58,094 nt of DNA. It comes from a virus. The stretch spans positions 1-58,094 of IMG/VR virus record IMGVR_UViG_3300030380_000249; one strand, given 5' to 3'. The first letter of the stretch is position 1. Every line of letters begins with the position of its first letter. The notes beneath the pieces are model-generated. The model saw only the letters and a list, made by a program, of their open reading frames with translations, had not been told where the DNA came from and searched no databases. Position numbers and translations under genes: made by a program. Positions 13,780-56,531 of the stretch are shown here, piece by piece.

Positions 13780-14546
13780 TATGCGTCCTCCAGTGCGGTC
13801 ACGCGCGCTTTAAGCGCAGTCATTTCGGTTTCGAGGGTTTCAATTTTGGTGATGGCTTCTTGCAGTGCTCCGGTCAGCAGCGGCACCAGCTTGCTCTGGT
13901 CGATGCCTTGCATGACTGCGTTGCCGTTGTCATCAACCTCGTTGTGTGTGCCGTGTACAGCTTCTGGCACGACAGCCTGCGCCTCGTGGGCAAGGAAGCC
14001 GTCAACCGTAGTGTCGGCGTCTGCAATAAAGTTGAAACGCTTTGGTGCAAGTGCCTTCACACGAGCGATTGCGCCGGTCATATCGGCCACGTTTTCTTTG
14101 ATGCGGTAATCTGACGCTGTTGCAAAGCTTGTTGAATTGGCACTGGTAAAAATTGAACCAACTTCACCATTAGGATTGTGAAATCCTAATTGTTGTATTG
14201 CGCCAGTACCATTTACACTAAGGTCTCTATTGCCAACACCACCGAACTTTATACCTCCACCACCACTAGAAAATGATGTTGCGCCAATGAGAAGACTGCC
14301 GCTACTGTTGATACGCATACGTTCTGACCCACCCGATGAAAACGCAAGAGTATCCGCACCCGGCAAAAACATGCCGCTGCTCGTGTCGTTACTAAATGCG
14401 TAAGCAGGTGCAGATGCAGAACTGTTAGGCGCACGGGTGGCCGCAGCAAATGTGACATTTTCAGACGAATCGATCGTAATAGCAGTGGCATCACTAGAAT
14501 TGGAAATGCCAGTGATACCTTCTTTACCAACCTTAGTTAATGCCAT
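13779..14546 (-). CDS. Tail fibre with S74 intramolecular chaperone (copy 2)
   Basis: This 255-residue protein has an N-terminal half with short fibre beta repeats (SSGMFLPGADTLAFSSGGSERMRI). The last 110 residues are a peptidase-S74 chaperone domain: SDYRIKENVADMTGAIARVKAL, KRFNFIAD, DGFLAHEAQAVVPEAVHG, IDQSKLVPLLTGALQEAI and a final coiled coil. S74 domains fold the trimer and then cleave themselves just before the SD pair. A paralogue is at 15783-16601. Neighbouring genes are coupled, with the stop sharing a base with MPYIG. Confidence 0.85.
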   Translation of the reverse strand: MALTKVGKEGITGISNSSDATAITIDSSENVTFAAATRAPNSSASAPAYAFSNDTSSGMFLPGADTLAFSSGGSERMRINSSGSLLIGATSFSSGGGGIKFGGVGNRDLSVNGTGAIQQLGFHNPNGEVGSIFTSANSTSFATASDYRIKENVADMTGAIARVKALAPKRFNFIADADTTVDGFLAHEAQAVVPEAVHGTHNEVDDNGNAVMQGIDQSKLVPLLTGALQEAITKIETLETEMTALKARVTALEDA

Positions 14547-14558
14547 TGCCTGTTATCC

Positions 14559-15783: not shown

Positions 15784-16601
15784 TACTCACCTGCCTCCAG
15801 TGCTGCGACTTTTGTCTCGAGTGCTTCAATCTTTGCGATGGCTTCTTGCAGTGCGCCGGTAAGCAGCGGAACCAGCTTAGATTGGTCAATCCCCTGCATG
15901 ACAGCTTTGCCGTCTTCGTCCACTTTATCCTTAGTGCCGCTGATTGCTTCTGGCACGACGGTCTGCGCTTCATGCGCAAGGAAACCGTCAACGGTTCTGT
16001 CTGGGTCAATAATGAAGTTGAACCGTTTGGGTGACAGCGCCTTCACACGAGTGATTGCGCCGGTCATGTCGGCTACGTTTTCTTTGAGTCGATAGTCGGA
16101 GGATGTACCGTAATTAACCGCGCTATTACTATAATCAATGCCGCCCACATTGGAGCCGTTGTGGAAAAAATAATGTCCAGCAAAGTCGCCGCTAGCCGTT
16201 TTGTGTTGGTCAACCCGTGCTACATTAGCATCTGCGCCAGTGTTTAACTCTAAACCAGGGTCGTTTGAAGTAAGTGAGGTTTTGCCTATTAGCACGGCTC
16301 CGCTGCTGGATTCGATGCGCATACGTTCTGTGTTGTTTGTAGCAAAGGTCAGATTGTGTGAATTGGGTGTGCCAATGACTGCTTCGCTAACACTTCCCGG
16401 CGCAGCCATATGAAGTTGACGTGATGTAACACCACTGTCTTTTAGGAGGATGCCAGAACCTGTTGCATTACTATTGAAAGTATCTGTGCCGGTCATAGTA
16501 GCAGAGCCAGTTACAGCAACACGGCCCGTGCCATCAGGGTCAAGAGTAATATCGTTGTTACTCGCAAGGCTGGAGATTTTGTTTGTTTTTACCTCACTCA
16601 T
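15783..16601 (-). CDS. Tail fibre with S74 intramolecular chaperone (copy 1)
   Basis: This 272-residue protein starts at the ATG (16601) that forms ATGA with the preceding stop. The N-terminus MSEVKTNKISSLASNNDITLDPDGTG is a standard fibre tag. The C-terminal domain is S74: SDYRLKENVADMTGAITRVKAL, KRFNFIIDPDRTVDGFLAHEAQ, IDQSKLVPLLTGALQEAI, then a coiled coil. Within the S74 domain it is strongly similar to the copy at 13779. The N-terminal halves differ, as expected for receptor-binding swaps. Confidence 0.85.
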   Translation of the reverse strand: MSEVKTNKISSLASNNDITLDPDGTGRVAVTGSATMTGTDTFNSNATGSGILLKDSGVTSRQLHMAAPGSVSEAVIGTPNSHNLTFATNNTERMRIESSSGAVLIGKTSLTSNDPGLELNTGADANVARVDQHKTASGDFAGHYFFHNGSNVGGIDYSNSAVNYGTSSDYRLKENVADMTGAITRVKALSPKRFNFIIDPDRTVDGFLAHEAQTVVPEAISGTKDKVDEDGKAVMQGIDQSKLVPLLTGALQEAIAKIEALETKVAALEAGE

Positions 16602-17038
16602 AAGAGATCTCCAATAGTCATACAATAACTTGCACTTACATCGACATTATCGCCTTGTGCATTAGCGTCTGAATTTTTTCCCGTGAAAAAATCAACTTGT
16701 CCTGTAGTTGGTGCAGTCATCGTTGAATCGCTTACAAGATGTCCTATGTTTGCATTTACTCCACACCTAGTGTCGCCAGCAAGTCTAGTCTCTCCGCCAT
16801 CAGTAGCATTCATGCAAGATGCAAAATGGCATCTGTCCGTCACCGAACTAAAATTGTTTGTAAATTTAGTGGTGAAATCGCCTGCTCCGTGGTCCTGTAG
16901 AGTGGTTTGATTTAACGAGCCATCTACTATACCATCCACTGCGTCATAGTTGACCCAGTGTTTCGCAGCCTCTTGCTTCGTCAGCGTAGCCGCACCACCG
17001 CTGGTGCTTTGGATAGTATCTGCCTTTAGTGTACTCAT
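16598..17038 (-). CDS. Small tail-fibre cassette protein D
   Basis: This 146-residue protein starts MSTLKADTIQSTSGG and contains LTKQEAAKHWVNYD, GSLNQTTLQDHGAGDFTTKFTNNF and ends MTIGDLL, a diverged form of the HGDLA ending. Several Cys residues lie in its middle (CHFASC, RCGV). It is coupled by ATGA to both neighbours and occupies the same place behind MPYTG as cassette B does behind MPYIG. Confidence 0.65.
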   Translation of the reverse strand: MSTLKADTIQSTSGGAATLTKQEAAKHWVNYDAVDGIVDGSLNQTTLQDHGAGDFTTKFTNNFSSVTDRCHFASCMNATDGGETRLAGDTRCGVNANIGHLVSDSTMTAPTTGQVDFFTGKNSDANAQGDNVDVSASYCMTIGDLL

Positions 17039-17501: not shown

Positions 17502-17828
17502 TTAACTACTGATCGCATCCACTGCGGAAACCCATACATCCACAGAGTCCGCTGCACTTGACTGAACCTTCAAAGCATCTCCTGATTGCAGGACGATTTT
17601 AGCACCACCATCCAAAACCTGTAGAGCTGATGCCGCCGGTATCGGAGCATCTTTGACCAGGTAATGATCGTTTGAACTCACCGTTAAAAACACGCTTACC
17701 GTAATCTGAGAAGTGGTGGTATTAGCTAGATTGATTCCAACCAAAGTATCGTTTGAATTTGACGTATGTATCGCAACTGCTGATGTGCCCACATTTCTTG
17801 CAATATACCGTGTAAAGTCCTGTGCCAT
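17502..17828 (-). CDS. Small structural protein (108 aa)
   Basis: This beta-rich protein (RYIARNVGTSAVAIHT, TTTSQITVSVFLTV, DHYLVKDAPIPAASALQVLDGGAKIVLQSGDALKV) has the pattern of small phage tail proteins with an 'IPAGSSLEVL-G-KIVL-SGD-L-V' phrase. No enzyme motif is present. It sits at the upstream end of the fibre array. Function is inferred from context only. Confidence 0.55.
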   Translation of the reverse strand: MAQDFTRYIARNVGTSAVAIHTSNSNDTLVGINLANTTTSQITVSVFLTVSSNDHYLVKDAPIPAASALQVLDGGAKIVLQSGDALKVQSSAADSVDVWVSAVDAISS

Positions 17829-17837
17829 TACCTTCTC

Positions 17838-18524
17838 CTAAAGTGCTATCGCCATTGCAATAGCAAATCCCGCTGTCGCTCCTGTTGATCCGCTTGACGC
17901 TGATGTCACCCTTCCATCAGCCGCCACAGTTATACTTGAGTTTGTATAGCTACCAGCCGAGACCCCTGAATTTGCGATATCCGTTGCGATTGACACGTTG
18001 CCTAAGTTTGTCATTGCAGTAGCACTGGCGGTCACATCCCCAGTTAGCGTAATCGTTGGACTCTTTTCTACGGTGACGCCACTCTCAATAGTGCCGCTAG
18101 ACAACGTCAGACTAGAAAAAGCGTCTACCGCCGCTCCAGATCCATCCGTGTAGATGACCTTTGTTTCACCGTTAGGAATTGACGGGTTGGTACCGGAACT
18201 GACGATTTCAATCGTCTGACTACCAGAGGTAGCGTTCTCAATAAACCAGATTTTAGAAACTGTGCTTGGAGCAAGCGTAACTGTCCGTGTGGCTGTCAGG
18301 CTTACGCCAGAGGTAATCTTCAAGTACATCGCACGGACACCGTCCGTTGCACCGTCCGCCATTGTAATCGTGCTGTTAGCATCACTGGCTATTGCTTCTG
18401 TGCCAAAACCAAAGGCATCCGCAATAAGCTCAAGATTTGCGTTCGTCGTCTGGCCCCAGGTGCCTGACTGTTCGCCGTCAGCAATCTCTTCAAGACGAAG
18501 ATTATTTACATATGTACTCGCCAT
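17838..18524 (-). CDS. Tail-fibre protein, N-terminal baseplate/neck-attachment type
   Basis: The start MASTYVNNLRLEEIADGEQSGTWGQTTN is a very common marine-phage tail-fibre N-terminus. It continues as beta-rich sequence (IWFIENATSGSQTIEI, TKVIYTDGSGAAVDAFSSL) and short fibre repeats to an Ala/Ile-rich C-terminus. At 228 residues it lacks a receptor domain, so it may be the proximal part of a multi-protein fibre whose distal pieces are the cassettes below. The reading is from motif recognition. Confidence 0.7.
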   Translation of the reverse strand: MASTYVNNLRLEEIADGEQSGTWGQTTNANLELIADAFGFGTEAIASDANSTITMADGATDGVRAMYLKITSGVSLTATRTVTLAPSTVSKIWFIENATSGSQTIEIVSSGTNPSIPNGETKVIYTDGSGAAVDAFSSLTLSSGTIESGVTVEKSPTITLTGDVTASATAMTNLGNVSIATDIANSGVSAGSYTNSSITVAADGRVTSASSGSTGATAGFAIAMAIAL

Positions 18525-18531
18525 TCATGCC

Positions 18532-21126
18532 TCACGCTGCTATGTCTTCCCAGTTGTCGCTAACCCCTGTGGTGATAGTGCTCCAAGATGGTGACTGACT
18601 TGGCGACACAGCACTCCAAGATGGTGACTGACTCGGAACAATCTGACTCCATACCAAGACAGACCCAACTTGGCCTGTTCCGACTATACCAGTAGCTGGC
18701 ACATTTGCCAATCCCGTGACAGTTACCGAACCTAATCCACTTTGGATGGCGTCTGAAGTAACCTGAACGTTTGCTGATGCAAGTGCAACAGCGGTTCCCT
18801 GCGATGCCGTCAGGCCAATGCCTGTAACGTCTATATTGTTGTTGGTAACTAGAGAAACTTCTCCAACAGATCCAGTGGCCTCTATTCCTGTGGCAGGGAT
18901 GTTGGCCTCGCCAACAACGGTAACTGAGTCAATCTCGCCAGTGGCCTCTGATCCCGTAACAACCACAGTTACGCCAATAACAGCTTCAGCGGTTCCTACC
19001 TGACCTGTAGCCTCTTCCCCTGTAACAGAAACGATAGCTTGAGCATCTACCGTCACAGAATCAATTTCGCCGGTTGCCTCTAGACCGGTAACATCTATGT
19101 TGTTGTTGGTTACGGGGGTAACCGAACCGACCTCAGAGGTAGCCTCCAAACCAGTCTGAGGGACATTAGCATCCGCTGTAACAGTTTCATCACCAACTTC
19201 GCCTGTGGCTTCAGAACCAGTGACCGCTACATTCGCCGCCGCCACAACAGTTTCATCACCAACGGCAGAAGTAGCTTCTAGGCCGGTAACAGCAATATTG
19301 TTATTGCTTACAGGGACAACCGAACCAACCCCGCCGGTTGCCTCCTCGCCGGTCTGTACTAGGATCTGTTGAGTGGTAACGGTTTCGTTACCAACTTCGC
19401 CTGTAGCCTCTGATCCACTGACAGCGATCACAGCGGCAGCGTCTACGGTGACAGAGCCGACGCCAGAGCTGGCCTCTAGTCCGGTCTCAGGAACAACCGC
19501 ACCAGCGTCTACGGTGACAGAGCCGACTCCACCCGTTCCTTCCACACCGGTGACGGCGACATTGAAGATTACTCTTACAGTAACCGAGCCAACTTCACCG
19601 GTGCCTTCGGATCCGGTAACAGACAAGTTCTGTGCGGTGCTTAGAGTAACAGTGCCTACAGCGGAGGTAGCTTCGGATCCAGTAACGGAAACAACCGCAG
19701 CGGCAGAAGTCTGACCGCCAAAGTTACGAACACCAAAAAGATTGGATTCTCTGTCACTACTGTCGTCTTCTACTACAGCGCCGACAGGCACCTCTGAAAC
19801 AAAGCGCATACCAGCGGTGAGCGCGTAACTCTTTTTGTTTGGAGTAAGATTGCTATCCGTAGTCGTGCTTGAGATAAGCTGGAACTTGGTCGGAAAGTCT
19901 GATCCAGTGTTGCTTGTCGCAAGCTGTATGGTGTCTACGAGTGTGCCGCTACTGTTGTAGACCTCAATGTTGCGGTCATTTGTACCCGGCGCACCGATGA
20001 AGTTAACAAATTCAGCCGCCTCTATCAGCCTAAACTCGTGAGCAAAACAGCCCTCCGGTATAAAGCTGGTTTTTTCACCGCCGTCACTGTCCGCAATGCT
20101 AAATGCCGCAGAGGCTTTAGCCGTTTGATACCTATTACTTGGCCCAGTAAAGTCTGTGCCCCCTGCAAAATTAGTGTTGGTTGTGCTTATCGTGGAACTG
20201 TTACTGGTCCCATCACTAGCAAATCTTGTGAAGGTTTGTGCCGTCCCGCCGTATCCATCCACCAAAATCGCTGCTGCACTGCCAGATGCAAAGCCATAAA
20301 GGAAGTCGGTGCTTGCAGGGAACGCTGATCTGCTATCGCCAGACAAGCTAGTAGAGCGTGTCTTAAAGACAATAATCGGCAAGTCTGAAAATACGGTGTA
20401 TTCAGGGTCAGAAGTATCGTCAGCGTAGGATTGCGTTGTGGTCGCGGTGCTACCGACACTCAAGGTTGTGGTTGATACACCGTCCTTGAATATCTCTACC
20501 GATGCCGTGCCATACAGGGCGCGCATCTGTAATACAAAACCCGTCCTTGTATTGCGGAAGCCAAACGAAGTGCCTGCCCAAGAGGTCGGCACACCAACAG
20601 TTTGGTTGTCCCCACTTTGAAGCGTAATCGGCTTGTTGGCCGATATGATCTTGTTTTCATAATCTGACGCGGAGACTGTAAGTGTGCCACCTGCCGAACT
20701 TATTGTGCCAAGAGATGACCCGTCAGCCGAGACTGTGGTGCTAGCCTCAAAGGCCATAACAGTTATGTTGGGATCATCGGTGTCTGTAGGTACGAAGTAT
20801 TCGGCGTTGAGGGCGCCGCCTAGCTCTGGGTTGCCTTGAGCCGCAAATCCAACAACGGAAACTCCTGCATTCGCAACAACCGTTACGCTACCAACCGAAC
20901 CAGTAGCTTCTAGACCGGTCTCAGAAACATTGGCAACGCCGGTTACGGTTACAGAACCTACGCCTGATGTGGCCTCTAAGCCAGTTTCTGGGACGTTAGC
21001 TTCTGCATCAACCGTTACGCTACCATTACTTGCGGTAGCCGAAACTCCAGACGCAACAACAGGTAAGGGGGAGTTCCACGCCCCTTCGGACCATGAACCC
21101 CGACCCCAACCTGTTATGTTAGCCAT
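18532..21126 (-). CDS. Repeat-rich virion surface protein (22-residue repeats)
   Basis: This 864-residue protein starts MANITGWGRGSWSEGAWN. About three repeats come first, then a non-repeat beta domain (residues about 100-445), then some sixteen near-continuous units of exactly 22 residues, consensus VxVTGxEATGxVGxVTVxxxAN. The C-terminus is WSAVSPSQSPSWSTITTGVSDNWEDIAA, a duplicated SPSQSPSW phrase common in marine phage structural proteins. The repeats probably form an extended beta fibre on the virion or tail. The same repeat type interrupts the gp10-like gene at 9874-10551. Confidence 0.7.
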   Translation of the reverse strand: MANITGWGRGSWSEGAWNSPLPVVASGVSATASNGSVTVDAEANVPETGLEATSGVGSVTVTGVANVSETGLEATGSVGSVTVVANAGVSVVGFAAQGNPELGGALNAEYFVPTDTDDPNITVMAFEASTTVSADGSSLGTISSAGGTLTVSASDYENKIISANKPITLQSGDNQTVGVPTSWAGTSFGFRNTRTGFVLQMRALYGTASVEIFKDGVSTTTLSVGSTATTTQSYADDTSDPEYTVFSDLPIIVFKTRSTSLSGDSRSAFPASTDFLYGFASGSAAAILVDGYGGTAQTFTRFASDGTSNSSTISTTNTNFAGGTDFTGPSNRYQTAKASAAFSIADSDGGEKTSFIPEGCFAHEFRLIEAAEFVNFIGAPGTNDRNIEVYNSSGTLVDTIQLATSNTGSDFPTKFQLISSTTTDSNLTPNKKSYALTAGMRFVSEVPVGAVVEDDSSDRESNLFGVRNFGGQTSAAAVVSVTGSEATSAVGTVTLSTAQNLSVTGSEGTGEVGSVTVRVIFNVAVTGVEGTGGVGSVTVDAGAVVPETGLEASSGVGSVTVDAAAVIAVSGSEATGEVGNETVTTQQILVQTGEEATGGVGSVVPVSNNNIAVTGLEATSAVGDETVVAAANVAVTGSEATGEVGDETVTADANVPQTGLEATSEVGSVTPVTNNNIDVTGLEATGEIDSVTVDAQAIVSVTGEEATGQVGTAEAVIGVTVVVTGSEATGEIDSVTVVGEANIPATGIEATGSVGEVSLVTNNNIDVTGIGLTASQGTAVALASANVQVTSDAIQSGLGSVTVTGLANVPATGIVGTGQVGSVLVWSQIVPSQSPSWSAVSPSQSPSWSTITTGVSDNWEDIAA

Positions 21127-26233: not shown

Positions 26234-27145
26234 TTAGGCGCCCGGCGAACCGAACACACAACGCGGATCAGAGAAACCGAAGCTGTAACGCTCACGAGCC
26301 TTGAAACGCATGTTGCCGGTGTCGAAGTCTGCTTCCATCTGAGTGGAAAGCGGTAGACGCTCAAAGTGTACAAAGCCACGAGGCGCATCGGTAAGGATGA
26401 AGAACGCATCCGTGTCCGTAAGGAAGTCGTTGACGTGGTAACCGTCAGGCAACATCCCCATGGAACGAAGTGCATTTACATCGTTATCCGCAGTACCCAC
26501 ACGCAGGTTAGAAACCATCAGACGCTCTGCAACGAACTGAAGCTGACGAGGTATGATCAGCTTCATGCCGCGAAGGGCGACTTTCAGGCCACGCTCATCA
26601 ACGAAACCAGCGATGCTGATCAGAGCGTCCTCAAGTGAGGTCTCGTTCAGATCTGCGGCTGTGCCTGGCTCGTTAGCAAACGTGCTACCGTTTGTAAGCG
26701 GGTGTGATGCGTCACAAAGTGCAACACCGTCACCGCCGGCAGACGCACCAGCCGTAAACGCATTATTGAGAATGCTAGCTGCTTTGACCTGCTTCGTGTG
26801 TGCCATTGAACGAGCAAGAGCACGAGTGTAGCGAGAGGAGAGACGATCATAGAGATTGTCTTCCACAGCTTCTTCCGTGATCGAAAATGCCAGTGCAATG
26901 GTTTCGTGGTTGTACCGAGCTGTGAATGCTTCGTTGGCATCATCAAAAGTGATGGCGGAACCTTCCGACTTAGTCGGAGCGGCGCCAAAGCCACTCAACA
27001 TCACTTCCTCCTCAAATGCTCGATCTGAGGACTCGGTAGTGTAGATTTCTGCGTGCTGGTTCTCGTACCTGTCGTACTCCATTCCAAATAGAGCATTGAG
27101 GCCTGGTTCCAGTTCTTTCGCTAGTTGTGCGCGAGAAATAGCCAT
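26234..27145 (-). CDS. Major capsid protein (HK97 fold, Mu gpT-like)
   Basis: This 303-residue protein starts MAISRAQLAKELEPGLNALFG, then YENQHAEIYTTESSDRAFEEEVMLSGFGAAP, FTARYNHETIALAFSITEEAVEDNLYDRL, a G-loop-like GDGVALCDASHPL and a C-terminus RERYSFGFSDPRCVFGS. These are typical of Mu gpT-like major head subunits in marine podoviruses. It sits directly after scaffold and decoration-type genes and before a terminator. Residues 5-21 recur exactly in the early protein at 45657. The ATG has a good SD (GGAGG). Confidence 0.92.
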   Translation of the reverse strand: MAISRAQLAKELEPGLNALFGMEYDRYENQHAEIYTTESSDRAFEEEVMLSGFGAAPTKSEGSAITFDDANEAFTARYNHETIALAFSITEEAVEDNLYDRLSSRYTRALARSMAHTKQVKAASILNNAFTAGASAGGDGVALCDASHPLTNGSTFANEPGTAADLNETSLEDALISIAGFVDERGLKVALRGMKLIIPRQLQFVAERLMVSNLRVGTADNDVNALRSMGMLPDGYHVNDFLTDTDAFFILTDAPRGFVHFERLPLSTQMEADFDTGNMRFKARERYSFGFSDPRCVFGSPGA

Positions 27146-28288: not shown

Positions 28289-29182
28289 TTAGTCCTTTAC
28301 ATACTTAGCGTATTCTTCCAAAGGAACTCCAAGTTTTTTAGCCATTGCTATCTGTGATGGTGACAACTTGACAGTCCTGCGCCCCTGCTTGTTGCTGCGG
28401 GATGCGGAAGTAGAAGCCGAGGCGACCCTTGTACTTCCCCCGTTCTGTTTGGCCCCCAACTCGTTTGGAAAACGAGATTTAAGACGAGAGTCCAATTCAT
28501 TGTAGTAGTCATCGCCAGATGGGTCAAACCCTTCTTCGTTGACTAAGTTATTATGAATTACAAACGCGGCCTGTGTCATGATCTCGTCATCACCAAACCA
28601 TTCGTTTGTTTCTGCCCACTTCTGTGCTCGTGGGTCTGGCTGTGCCTGTTGTGCCTGTTGTGGCTGTGTCTCCTGCGGAACCTCAACAGGTTGTGCCTGT
28701 TGCTCTTGGCGCTGTTTAGCAAGTCTATAGCGTTCTTGCTCAATGGCGATATGCGACAGCGCCTGTTGAGAATTGAACAAGGCATCCGCGTCACCGCGCT
28801 CATGAGCGTCCGTATACGCACGCTTGGCTTGTTCTAGCTGAGAATCCAAACGAGTGCCGTACTCACTAAGGTAGCCTTGATCAAGGTTACTGAGTTTGGT
28901 CTTGAGTTGTTCATTCTCTTGCTTCAAGACATCCGCAAGTCGCGCAGCTTCTTCCTTGTCGCGCTCGGCATAGCGGTACTTCTCAGTCAGCTTCTTGATG
29001 CGCTTCTGAACACCCTTACTGTAATTGTCTAATTCATCCTCGGACGCTTCGGCAGGCTCTTCAGTTTGAACCTCAACACGCTCTTCTTCAGCGTTAACCG
29101 TCTTCTTATCGTCCTCAAGCGTTACTTCAACGCTCTCTTCTTCAATTGCTTGAGCCTCTGCCATCTCCGTCTCCTTAGACAT
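28289..29182 (-). CDS. Scaffolding protein
   Basis: This 297-residue protein has an acidic N-terminus (EEESVEVTLEDD, then TEEPAEASEDELD), a long coiled coil (KRIKKLTEKYRYAERDKEEAARLADVLKQENEQLK), a Gln/Pro linker, and a short Lys-rich C-terminal helix (KLSPSQIAMAKKLGVPLEEYAKYV). This acidic-coil-basic layout and its position one gene from the capsid genes are those of phage scaffolds. It overlaps the GroES-like gene above by 8 bases. Confidence 0.85.
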   Translation of the reverse strand: MSKETEMAEAQAIEEESVEVTLEDDKKTVNAEEERVEVQTEEPAEASEDELDNYSKGVQKRIKKLTEKYRYAERDKEEAARLADVLKQENEQLKTKLSNLDQGYLSEYGTRLDSQLEQAKRAYTDAHERGDADALFNSQQALSHIAIEQERYRLAKQRQEQQAQPVEVPQETQPQQAQQAQPDPRAQKWAETNEWFGDDEIMTQAAFVIHNNLVNEEGFDPSGDDYYNELDSRLKSRFPNELGAKQNGGSTRVASASTSASRSNKQGRRTVKLSPSQIAMAKKLGVPLEEYAKYVKD

Positions 29183-29642
29183 GCTTCACATCATCGGGTT
29201 CAAGAAGGGTAGCAATCACTTCGTCATCATTTATGACGCGAACCTCTCCACCTTCGATCTTGAACCTAGACCCTGCATAACGACCAATGCACACCCACTG
29301 ACCTTCCTGACACCATGGCTCTGGGTTATCGCCAAACTTGTTGGGATCTTGGTAAGCCAACGGCCCTAGCTTCAGCACATAAGCTACTACCGTAGCTAGT
29401 GCCTCACGCTCACGGGCTTGATCAGGAATAAGAATGCCACCATCGGTCTTTGCCTTGCCTTGATACGGCATAACAAGAAGTCGCCAACCCGTAGGTTGCG
29501 GCAAGCGTTCTTTCAGGGATTTGTCGATGAGACCGGGGTCTAAGACTCGCTGGTCTGCCTCTACATAAGCAGAATCTGCGGTAACGGGATCTTTTGCTTT
29601 TGATCTGGCAACATGATCAGGAACGTATAATGTCTTCGCCAT
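29175..29642 (-). CDS. GroES-like co-chaperonin
   Basis: This 155-residue protein has a Cpn10 core from about residue 50: GWRLLVMPYQGKAKTDGGILIPDQAREREALATVVAYVLKLGPLAYQD, followed by GQWVCIGRYAGSRFKIEGGEVRVINDDEVIATL. The 'GGILIPD' mobile-loop region and the 'G..V....Y.G......G...R.I.DDEV.A' end are diagnostic. It may replace host GroES, as T4 gp31 does, so that capsid protein folds in GroEL. It lies directly beside scaffold. Confidence 0.87.
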   Translation of the reverse strand: MAKTLYVPDHVARSKAKDPVTADSAYVEADQRVLDPGLIDKSLKERLPQPTGWRLLVMPYQGKAKTDGGILIPDQAREREALATVVAYVLKLGPLAYQDPNKFGDNPEPWCQEGQWVCIGRYAGSRFKIEGGEVRVINDDEVIATLLEPDDVKHV

Positions 29643-45278: not shown

Positions 45279-45471
45279 GGCAATGGCCTTGGTGTGCACG
45301 GTGTTCGCAGGCGGTGAGAGCAAATGCGAGACCGAATTTTATCATCGCACATTCGATAGCGTGCAGGCTTGTACGACGCAGCTGACTCAGTGGCGGTTTT
45401 ATGAACTGCCTCGGAACAAGAAGATTGTTCTGGATGATTGTGTGATAACAAGCTATAAACATGAAGAATGA
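45268..45471 (+). CDS. Small exported Cys protein (67 aa)
   Basis: The N-terminus MIVKAMALVCTVFAGGES looks like a short signal or anchor. The rest, KCETEFYHRTFDSVQACTTQLTQWRFYELPRNKKIVLDDCVITSYKHEE, holds three Cys that could pair. The layout matches the late protein at 30586. The gene overlaps both neighbours. Probably periplasmic or membrane associated. Confidence 0.55.
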   Translation: MIVKAMALVCTVFAGGESKCETEFYHRTFDSVQACTTQLTQWRFYELPRNKKIVLDDCVITSYKHEE

Positions 45472-45997
45472 TAATAAAATCTTAGATTTCACAATCACCC
45501 TATATTCTAATAGGTTAAAGATTGTGAAGGAGGTGGTGTGCAAACCCACCGAAGTGGAGAAGGTGATTGATGAACTGGACACACAAGCCAGCATCCCCAG
45601 AAGGGGAGACGGTCACCATGGTTACTACATCGAAGTCGAAGTAAGGAGGTACAAGGATGTATTTAGGAAACCAGACTCTTCTGGTGAACGACGCTCTGAA
45701 CCTGCTGCGCGGAAAGCTAGTGCGGTTCGTTCTGGAAGACGGCGACATGAGGATGATCGCAAACCTCGTAGCAACAGCGGACGAGCTAGGTCTGGAGTAC
45801 GACAAGGAGTCGATGATCTATCGGGATCGAAAGGCCGAGGAGGCAAGACTCAAGGGTCGGGCGCAACTAGCAAAGGAACTAGAGCCAGGTCTGAACGCGC
45901 TATTCGGGACGGATTATCTGCAACACGATCCAGAAGCACAGCGTCAGGAAAGAAATCGCAAGGCGCGAGAGCGGTATCACGCAAAAAAGAAAGGTAA
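45461..45997 (+). CDS. Hypothetical protein with long out-of-frame tail (178 aa)
   Basis: The first 65 residues (KILDFTITLYSNRLKIVKEVVCKPTEVEKVIDELDTQ, HGYYIEVEV) look like a normal folded domain. The remaining 113 residues lie in another frame of the gene at 45657 and are Arg/Ser/Gly-rich. The frame stays open for 341 bases of overlap. Either the tail is a true Arg/Ser-rich extension or the gene recently lost its stop. The start is weakly supported (no clear SD). Confidence 0.45.
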   Translation: MKNDNKILDFTITLYSNRLKIVKEVVCKPTEVEKVIDELDTQASIPRRGDGHHGYYIEVEVRRYKDVFRKPDSSGERRSEPAARKASAVRSGRRRHEDDRKPRSNSGRARSGVRQGVDDLSGSKGRGGKTQGSGATSKGTRARSERAIRDGLSATRSRSTASGKKSQGARAVSRKKER

Positions 45998-46082
45998 GAC
46001 CAATGGCGGCAAAGCGCGGAAGACCAACAGTCGAAAAAAAGGCGGCGTTTCGCAACGTGGCCGTGCCGATGGAAATCTATGA
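45657..46082 (+). CDS. Early protein carrying the capsid N-terminal motif (141 aa)
   Basis: N-terminal domain: MYLGNQTLLVNDALNLLRGKLVRFVLEDGDMRMIANLVATADELGLEYDKESMIYRDRKAEE. Residues 68-84 read RAQLAKELEPGLNALFG, identical to capsid protein residues 5-21, encoded with 12 of 17 codons differing at synonymous third positions. The C-terminal 45 residues are Lys/Arg-rich. AAGGAGG lies seven bases before the ATG, the best SD nearby. The position between early genes makes an assembly or control role the main idea. Function is otherwise unknown. Confidence 0.75.
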   Translation: MYLGNQTLLVNDALNLLRGKLVRFVLEDGDMRMIANLVATADELGLEYDKESMIYRDRKAEEARLKGRAQLAKELEPGLNALFGTDYLQHDPEAQRQERNRKARERYHAKKKGKTNGGKARKTNSRKKGGVSQRGRADGNL

Positions 46083-46185
46083 GATGATCCGTGAGCTGTC
46101 CAAGTCTGAAGACCGGACAATCGCAAGGCAACTAGCCGTCCTGATCAAGGACGCATACCAACAGACAAGGGAGAAGTCTGCATGA
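46003..46185 (+). CDS. Ribbon-helix-helix (Arc/MetJ-type) regulator
   Basis: This 60-residue protein reads MAAKRGRPTVEKKAAFRNVAVPMEIYEMIRELSKSEDRTIARQLAVLIKDAYQQTREKSA. A beta strand (FRNVAVP) and two helices (EIYEMIRELSKSE and TIARQLAVLIKDAY) are the RHH fold, which binds DNA as a dimer through the strand. The basic RGRP start could also contact the minor groove. It overlaps the preceding gene by 80 bases. It may bind the inverted repeats in the control region. Confidence 0.75.
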   Translation: MAAKRGRPTVEKKAAFRNVAVPMEIYEMIRELSKSEDRTIARQLAVLIKDAYQQTREKSA

Positions 46186-55906: not shown

Positions 55907-56265
55907 TTAAGGTTCAAGATTCAAGCATTGAGGGTGTTGGTGTTTTTGCTGATCGCAACATTCTAAAGGATGAAGTGATTGAGGCCTGCTTCTATGTCGT
56001 TATAGACAATGACGATATCAAAGAGGGCAGTCGCCTTGATGATTATCTTTTTCAAAGTCCAGACAATGATGAGGACTACTACTGCGTGCTGGGCGCTGGG
56101 ATGATCTACAACCACGGATCAGATCCAAACGCTGAATGGCAGATATCCGAAACAGATAATAGGTTTCTAGAGTTCGTCGCTTTGCGGGACATAGCCGCAG
56201 GCGAAGAGATTGTTCACCATTACGGCGAGGACTATTGGGACACTCGCGAGGAGGAACAAAAATGA
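55903..56265 (+). CDS. SET-domain methyltransferase-like protein
   Basis: This 120-residue protein shows SET landmarks: EGVGVFADRNILKDEVIE (10-27, the GxGxFA start), IYNHGSDPNAEW (68-79, the NHS-xPN equivalent forming the knot) and GEEIVHHYGEDYW (100-112, the GEEL..DY end). These make the SAM- and lysine-binding core. The length equals small viral SET proteins. It would methylate a protein lysine, with target unknown. ATGA with both neighbours places it in the replication operon. Confidence 0.85.
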   Translation: MIKVQDSSIEGVGVFADRNILKDEVIEACFYVVIDNDDIKEGSRLDDYLFQSPDNDEDYYCVLGAGMIYNHGSDPNAEWQISETDNRFLEFVALRDIAAGEEIVHHYGEDYWDTREEEQK

Positions 56266-56531
56266 AACGTGACAAGCTACTCGACACCGCCAAGGACTTG
56301 GTCAATGGGCCGAGAGCCAGAGATTATGGCGATGCCTACGAGAACCATGAACGCGTGGCGCAACTCTGGTCTGTCATACTAGAGAAAGACGTTACGGTTT
56401 CTCAAGTTTATCAGTGTCTTACGGCGCTAAAACTTGCTAGACTAATTGTTACGCCGACGCATCAGGACTCGTGGATCGACATTGCTGGTTACGCGAGTCT
56501 CGGAGGAGAAGTAGATGGCAAAGGAAAATAG
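56262..56531 (+). CDS. DUF6378-like phage protein (89 aa)
   Basis: It starts MKRDKLLDTAKDLVNGPRARDYGDAYENHERVAQLWSVILEKDVTVSQVYQCLTALKLARLIVTPTHQDSWIDIAGYASLGGEV. The pattern 'L--A--LV-G-RA-DYG---EN--R-A-LWS--L...V....V---L--LK-ARL---P-H-DSW-DIAGYA' is common in phage genomes near polymerases or nucleotide enzymes. Function unknown. Start overlaps the SET stop (ATGA); polA starts inside its end. Confidence 0.75.
   Translation: MKRDKLLDTAKDLVNGPRARDYGDAYENHERVAQLWSVILEKDVTVSQVYQCLTALKLARLIVTPTHQDSWIDIAGYASLGGEVDGKGK

Follow-up and report, generated by a model that had tools for sequence, protein, structure and literature searches.

The N-arm peptide of a gpT-like major capsid protein recurs in unrelated small phage proteins and may serve as a docking tag

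A 17-residue peptide from the N-terminus of the major capsid protein (MCP), RAQLAKELEPGLNALFG, is repeated exactly in a small protein encoded by the same virus and, within a group of marine phages, recurs in several other proteins that resemble each other in nothing else. The DNA analyzed here, referred to as the window, comprises 58,094 nucleotides (positions 1 to 58,094 of IMG/VR record IMGVR_UViG_3300030380_000249). Our preferred reading, to which we give somewhat less than an even chance, is that the peptide acts as a portable docking tag. It would reproduce the helical N-arm of the MCP from the same phage and thereby bring small DNA-binding proteins onto or into the prohead.

RAQLAKELEPGLNALFG is encoded at 45858-45908 (+), corresponding to residues 68-84 of a 141-residue protein, and at 27083-27133 (-), corresponding to residues 5-21 of the 303-residue gpT-like MCP. 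Translation of both stretches confirms the identity described in the initial annotation, and the match is indeed prolonged as x-(E/D)-Y (TDY and MEY). The two coding copies agree in 39 of 51 bases. They differ by 12 synonymous changes at 14.3 synonymous sites and by no change at 36.7 non-synonymous sites. These differences, together with independent contigs of the same arrangement, exclude an assembly error or a recent copy, in agreement with the earlier judgement. A search of the 141-residue protein against its own genome returned the protein itself and an alignment of residues 67-93 with the start of the MCP (E = 3e-7), and nothing else; the two proteins are otherwise dissimilar. All peptides were furthermore compared with each other for the window and four related contigs with both a bearer and an MCP (G004, G007, G040 and G036). 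RAQLAKELEPGLNALFG is the only long peptide common to unrelated proteins in this comparison, in which chance matches reach about 7-9 residues. The other stretches in common come from paralogous tail genes, from genome ends and from antisense shadows. The products of 13782-14552 and 15786-16646 (both on the minus strand of the window) have a similar long C-terminal stretch (SDYRLKENVADMTGAITRVKAL...), which resembles a tail-fibre intramolecular chaperone domain and represents a duplication.

The core ELEPGLNALFG was found 41 times in 84,980 bacterial and archaeal genomes (84,980 species). All of these matches (41/41) are located at the N-termini of gpT-like MCPs, starting 5-26 residues into the MCP frame. 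Among named phages (INPHARED), the peptide is present in MCPs only and no other bearer was found. As the genome scan matches MCPs only, chance and a common helix are excluded as explanations of the shared peptide. Poor conservation in relatives, the other observation that would have spoken against the initial annotation, was not found either; the motif is almost unchanged wherever it is present.

The 141-residue protein (45657..46082, +) is small and basic and consists of an N-terminal helical domain, the MCP-like peptide and a basic tail. Together with its relatives (L003-L020, L136, L137, L149 and L150) it is referred to as family F1. The protein matches no Pfam family and nothing significant in PHROG. 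Its designation as early reflects solely the strand and the neighbours, with methylase, primase and helicase genes on the plus strand and head genes on the minus strand. The N-terminal domain (LVNDALNLLRGK...LGLEYDKESMIY, 45681..45821, +) is marked by invariant alignment columns and is common to the F1 relatives in IMG/VR (about 55 residues), including short forms that lack the peptide. In the AlphaFold2 model this domain contains helices 3-23 and 28-44 (pLDDT 80-90), and a further helix (58-83) spans the peptide, with pLDDT 58-66 at the peptide. A fold search with this model gave no significant match. Long F1 forms continue after this domain with the peptide, then a linker that varies, and finally the basic tail NRKAREKYHAKKKGK.

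At 45461-46185 (+), three genes read in different frames overlap one another. The upstream gene (178 residues, 45461..45997, +) overlaps F1 in the +1 frame; about 67 residues are conserved, after which the frame stays open and basic through the peptide. The F1 tail (EAQRQERNRKARERYHAKKKGK..., 45933..46079, +) overlaps at its end, in another frame, with the following gene, a ribbon-helix-helix protein (RHH_5, PF07878; 46003..46185, +) that starts inside the tail. The upstream frame is open across the F1 gene far beyond what synonymous recodings give. Thus, the DNA encoding the peptide is probably dual-coding in the window. In short-form relatives, the DNA of the basic tail is read in the frame of the upstream gene instead.

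Within F1 the peptide is optional. It is present in 13 of the 18 relatives found first, degenerate in one and cleanly absent from the others. A damaged version (ELEPRLNALFS) is found in L013, and in L014, L149 and L020 the peptide is preceded by HTNIP or HTTIS. The short forms (L016-L019, L132, L140, L148, L172-L176 and L181-L183) lack the peptide and end with the AT-hook-like KRGRPK or similar. When the DNA of the window and of L006 is aligned with that of L017 and L019, peptide and linker correspond to a clean gap of about 130 bases in the two short alleles, with nearly identical flanks. An acidic segment (DDEAPEPEPEEE..DDELxEAFEHAWD) precedes the peptide in L014 and L149 and follows it in L013; therefore the linker modules appear to be shuffled within the family. 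Contig G015, which has a short F1 form, is closely similar to the window (95% identity in TerL and 90% in the portal protein), and contig G050 has an MCP 95% identical to that of the window and no bearer. Since phages this similar lack the peptide or the whole gene, the module is accessory and not an essential regulator of assembly. The regulatory role that had been considered for the early protein is thus contradicted as far as it was to be essential, and an essential assembly factor is excluded by the phages with the same MCP in which no bearer was found.

Further bearers were sought by three pattern scans of IMG/VR that excluded most MCPs; MAIA-type MCPs also matched, and the list of bearers is a minimum. 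The scans revealed at least nine non-MCP families with the peptide, i.e. at least eight beyond F1. F2 (L203, L204, L205 and L207) combines an HTH-like part, the peptide and DUF6378, and is encoded between a UvrD-like helicase and the DNA polymerase. F3 (L254) has no known domain. F4 (L264 and the second gene of L278) and F5 (the first gene of L278, L304, L313, L357 and L364) are both HTH-like with a C-terminal peptide, and the F5 gene of L278 adjoins polymerase and nuclease genes. F6 (L284) has an N-terminal peptide and a likely membrane segment. F7 (L366, L371, L377 and others) has two HTH domains, the peptide and a likely membrane segment, F8 (L367, L370, L376, L382, L389 and others) has the peptide and a winged helix, and F9 (L395) is small and basic.

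BLASTP comparison of the nine families gave 91 cross-matches with the peptide included. With the peptide masked five matches remained, all of them within a family, so the families share the peptide only. An exclusive pair of capsid and early protein is excluded by the eight or more other bearer families; a special tie of one early protein to the capsid is accordingly not supported. The peptide is always located in linkers or at termini. Its core lies at positions 29-171 in eight of the nine families and is N-terminal in L284 only. The bearers carry HTH_23, HTH_5, HTH/DUF6378, other HTH-like parts or basic tails, and DNA-binding parts are recognisable or likely by sequence in six or seven of the nine families. 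Most bearers have a pI of 8.8-10.2; L254 and L149 are acidic or near neutral. Most of the contigs examined have one bearer.

L278 has two bearers. Its adjacent HTH-like genes (206-499 and 496-783) both end with the peptide, encoded by nearly identical DNA, and differ otherwise, which suggests a recent duplication or gene conversion. In L284 (1729-2034, -), which lies near a portal gene, an MCP-like start with a repeated RAQLARAQLA leads into what is probably a membrane protein (holin-like). The window has its own DUF6378 protein (56262..56531, +), which lacks the peptide, in contrast to that of the F2 contigs. Hence, the peptide is located on different proteins in different genomes of one phage group. 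HTH-DUF6378 relatives in Mycobacterium phages also lack the peptide and are too divergent to demonstrate an insertion. Directly after the UvrD-like helicase in the early region, the window encodes a SET-domain protein (PF00856; 55903-56265, +).

The bias towards DNA-binding parts also suits a different function, in which the bearers sense assembly. The tag would then be an input: free scaffold (or MCP) would bind it and switch or titrate a DNA-binding regulator of phage genes or packaging. Expression would track head assembly, and packaging of the protein would be unnecessary. Apart from the domain content, this agrees with the position of several bearers in or beside replication genes. The architectures (HTH, wHTH, HTH-DUF6378, TM) are, however, very different, which would be odd for one circuit, and phages with the same MCP exist without the gene or without the peptide. 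We consider assembly sensing unlikely, though it is the best of the alternatives to the docking tag.

For each bearer contig in which the start of the MCP is present (G000, G004, G007, G009, G036, G040 and G013), the MCP has the peptide. In G013 the sequence is RQQLAKELEPGLNALFG, with one residue different. The MCP gene of G009 (17696-18600; L103, L114 and L118) is split among several frames and contains internal stops, the result of a frameshift or an assembly error. An MCP without its own start forms an in-frame fusion with the protein encoded upstream of it in L381 (1652-2944, -) and L386 (4088-5422, +); the joint still contains the peptide. Most of the bearer contigs without an MCP have tail, portal or terminase genes in common with the window or with MCP contigs, a comparison that covered contigs other than some short ones (L264, L278, L371 and L395).

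The MCP peptides are mainly of the subtypes A/V/L..ELEPG or L/M..ELLPG. Those of the bearers are A..ELEPG or L/F..ELLPG (I..ELKPG in L395) and never A..ELLPG. The head genes of the ELLPG bearer contig G023 and the terminase of G028 match contigs with an ELLPG MCP best, and those of G022, G036, G038 and L284 match contigs with an ELEPG MCP best. Best matches of the tail and early genes of bearer contigs are mixed between the MCP subtypes. Peptide subtypes thus tend to follow MCP subtypes in these few contigs. Such agreement fits a shared partner and also plain descent from the phage's own MCP. The earlier proposal that the protein binds the same partner as the MCP N-terminus is strengthened by the eight or more unrelated bearers and, as a tendency, by the subtypes; its binding remains putative.

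The MCP (26234..27145, -) is assigned to the gpT-like HK97-fold proteins by phrog_371 (4e-22) and by two Pfam families above the curated cut-offs (PF25209 with 41.1 bits, cut-off 27; PF10124 with 22.8 bits, cut-off 20.1). HK97-type structure matches were obtained with a low-confidence model. Its named homologs include the MCPs of Pelagibacter phages HTVC023P and HTVC027P, of phage DSL-LC04 and of Roseobacter phages CRP-901 and CRP-902 (57-72% identity). No solved structure related to the MCP by sequence was found. The peptide is located in the N-arm, with a helix predicted at residues 5-24 by AlphaFold2 (pLDDT about 53 there; 63 for the model, too weak for reading contacts). In an alignment of 24 MCPs, R5, Q7, L8, K10, E11, L12, P14-G21, E23, Y24 and Y27 are invariant. 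HK97-type shells usually have a free N-arm helix. The N-arm of Mu gp34 undergoes considerable conformational change (PMC11915804).

A nearly invariant capsid peptide would be a good target for host immunity, and host sensors triggered by a capsid protein exist, such as CapRel (PMC9712102). Early proteins presenting the same peptide could occupy or desensitize such a sensor before the capsid is made, and their optional presence would suit an accessory counter-defence gene. A bound copy would, however, be expected to trigger the sensor instead of blocking it, and the DNA-binding bias of the bearers is left unexplained. A decoy is therefore quite improbable in our view.

Next to the head genes, the window encodes a GroES co-chaperonin (29175..29642, -; PF00166, phrog_3188). 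The gene between GroES and the MCP block (28289..29182, -; phrog_28737, function unknown) is a candidate scaffold gene, judged by its position and the coiled-coil character of its product, which is a possible partner of the peptide. The peptide is absent from this candidate, the MCP and the one small protein being the only carriers in the window. No copy shared with the scaffold candidate was found in the window. The retention of the GroES gene beside the head genes in relatives could indicate that the peptide binds a general factor also needed by the MCP, e.g. GroEL with the phage GroES, or a protease. Small HTH proteins of about 90-140 residues should need no chaperonin, however, and chaperonins do not usually require an exact 17-residue sequence. 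This possibility appears marginally less probable than the decoy.

The peptide core ELEPGLNALFG is under extreme purifying selection, as measured in the F1 family of the window. Across 16 long F1 forms pS is 0.49 and pN is 0.0017 (pN/pS 0.0035), compared to a pN/pS of 0.24 for the N-terminal domain of the same genes. The overlapping upstream frame should reduce the synonymous rate, so the contrast between core and domain is, if anything, understated. This measure on the shared block, together with the excess of synonymous differences between the two copies in the window, bears out that both copies of the peptide have long been under selection, as the initial annotation had inferred. Functionless copying of the MCP 5' end into other genes by illegitimate recombination, to which the clean F1 indel and the nearly identical peptide DNA in L278 might point, is very improbable, being strongly disfavoured by synonymous divergence with almost no amino-acid change (pN/pS 0.0035), by the reading frame kept in nine families and by the finding of no other MCP part copied within these genomes.

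Returning to the docking tag, nine unrelated proteins share a motif that is otherwise found only on the MCP N-arm, and a shared partner is the simplest common property. The partner of the N-arm is the assembling shell or scaffold, and most bearers bind or probably bind DNA; for these reasons the docking tag is preferred. A tagged protein would bind the site held by the MCP N-terminus in the procapsid, either on the scaffold or in a groove of a neighbouring MCP, and would be carried onto or into the prohead. Given that a DNA-binding domain or a basic tail is present in most bearers, the tag would probably serve to bring small DNA-binding proteins into the head, so that they act during packaging or, once ejected, in the next host. 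The presence and absence of the peptide at one locus, as known for accessory internal proteins, supports this reading. Against it, T4 and P1 have their tags at the N-terminus, whereas the present one usually lies inside the protein or at its C-terminus; HTH regulators are atypical as internal proteins; two bearers (L254 and L149) are not basic; and the subtype agreement, seen in few contigs, could be common descent with the MCP.

In a broader form, held with slightly less confidence than the docking tag itself, the MCP N-arm helix would have spread as a general address tag to early DNA-binding proteins of unrelated kinds, and regulators would be packaged along with the genome or be under the control of head assembly. 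Such a link from capsid building to gene control, if true, has no counterpart described in the literature searched. An address tag would offer a route from sequence alone to proteins attached to or packed in the heads of abundant marine phages, which are otherwise hard to predict. The shell protein's own arm could then be a cargo signal, and a short portable peptide would be available for loading proteins into HK97-type shells. If the peptide belongs to a sensor or decoy instead, it marks a link of the capsid to gene control or immunity that is testable with one peptide.

Compared to Mu-like gpT MCPs (PF10124 and PF25209), the MCP of the window is an ordinary member, and the peptide is its conserved N-arm. 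No description of this peptide in other proteins was found in the literature searched, nor was the reuse of an MCP peptide in other phage proteins described in the open papers, which cover the field incompletely. Encapsulins are HK97-fold shells that load cargo by short peptides, and the Family 1 pocket is partly formed by the N-terminal helix of the shell (PMC8346489). The likeness would consist in a short terminal cargo peptide and an HK97-fold shell, the MCP of the window being HK97-type by a low-confidence model. Here the peptide is C-terminal in L264, L278 and L304 and located elsewhere in other families, with putative binding. Encapsulin cargo is enzymatic, and its peptide has not been described as copying the N-terminus of the shell. 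The capsid redirection proteins CpmB of SaPIs and Rcm are small helical proteins that enter assembly via a motif common with the scaffold (RIIK; PMC12409344) and thus resemble the F1 protein in sharing a motif with a head-assembly protein. Being satellite-encoded scaffold mimics that affect capsid size, they differ from the present case, in which the copied part comes from the MCP, not from the scaffold candidate (28289-29182), and the bearers are many and unrelated. In P1, the 30 N-terminal residues of DarB suffice for sending a reporter into the capsid (PMC9024508); a short stretch (more than 9 and fewer than 30 residues) is sufficient for head targeting. The signal of DarB is N-terminal and belongs to a single large antirestriction protein, and no peptide shared with the MCP is described in the parts of that report consulted.

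In T4, the capsid-targeting sequence is a short peptide that is the sole common feature of diverse small accessory phage proteins and leads them to the head (PMC3012670). The same pattern of otherwise unrelated small proteins with a short conserved peptide in common is observed here. The T4 sequence is N-terminal, in contrast to the mostly internal positions in the present families, and leads into the scaffolding core, whereas the present peptide is the MCP N-terminus and is absent from the scaffold candidate. Its effect in T4 is to lead proteins to the head; here the peptide is known from sequence. The two would work alike if the docking tag is real, the shell protein itself supplying the address in the present case. 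The idea of a capsid-targeting peptide is thus already known, and the version copied from the MCP, with its putative function, appears to be new.
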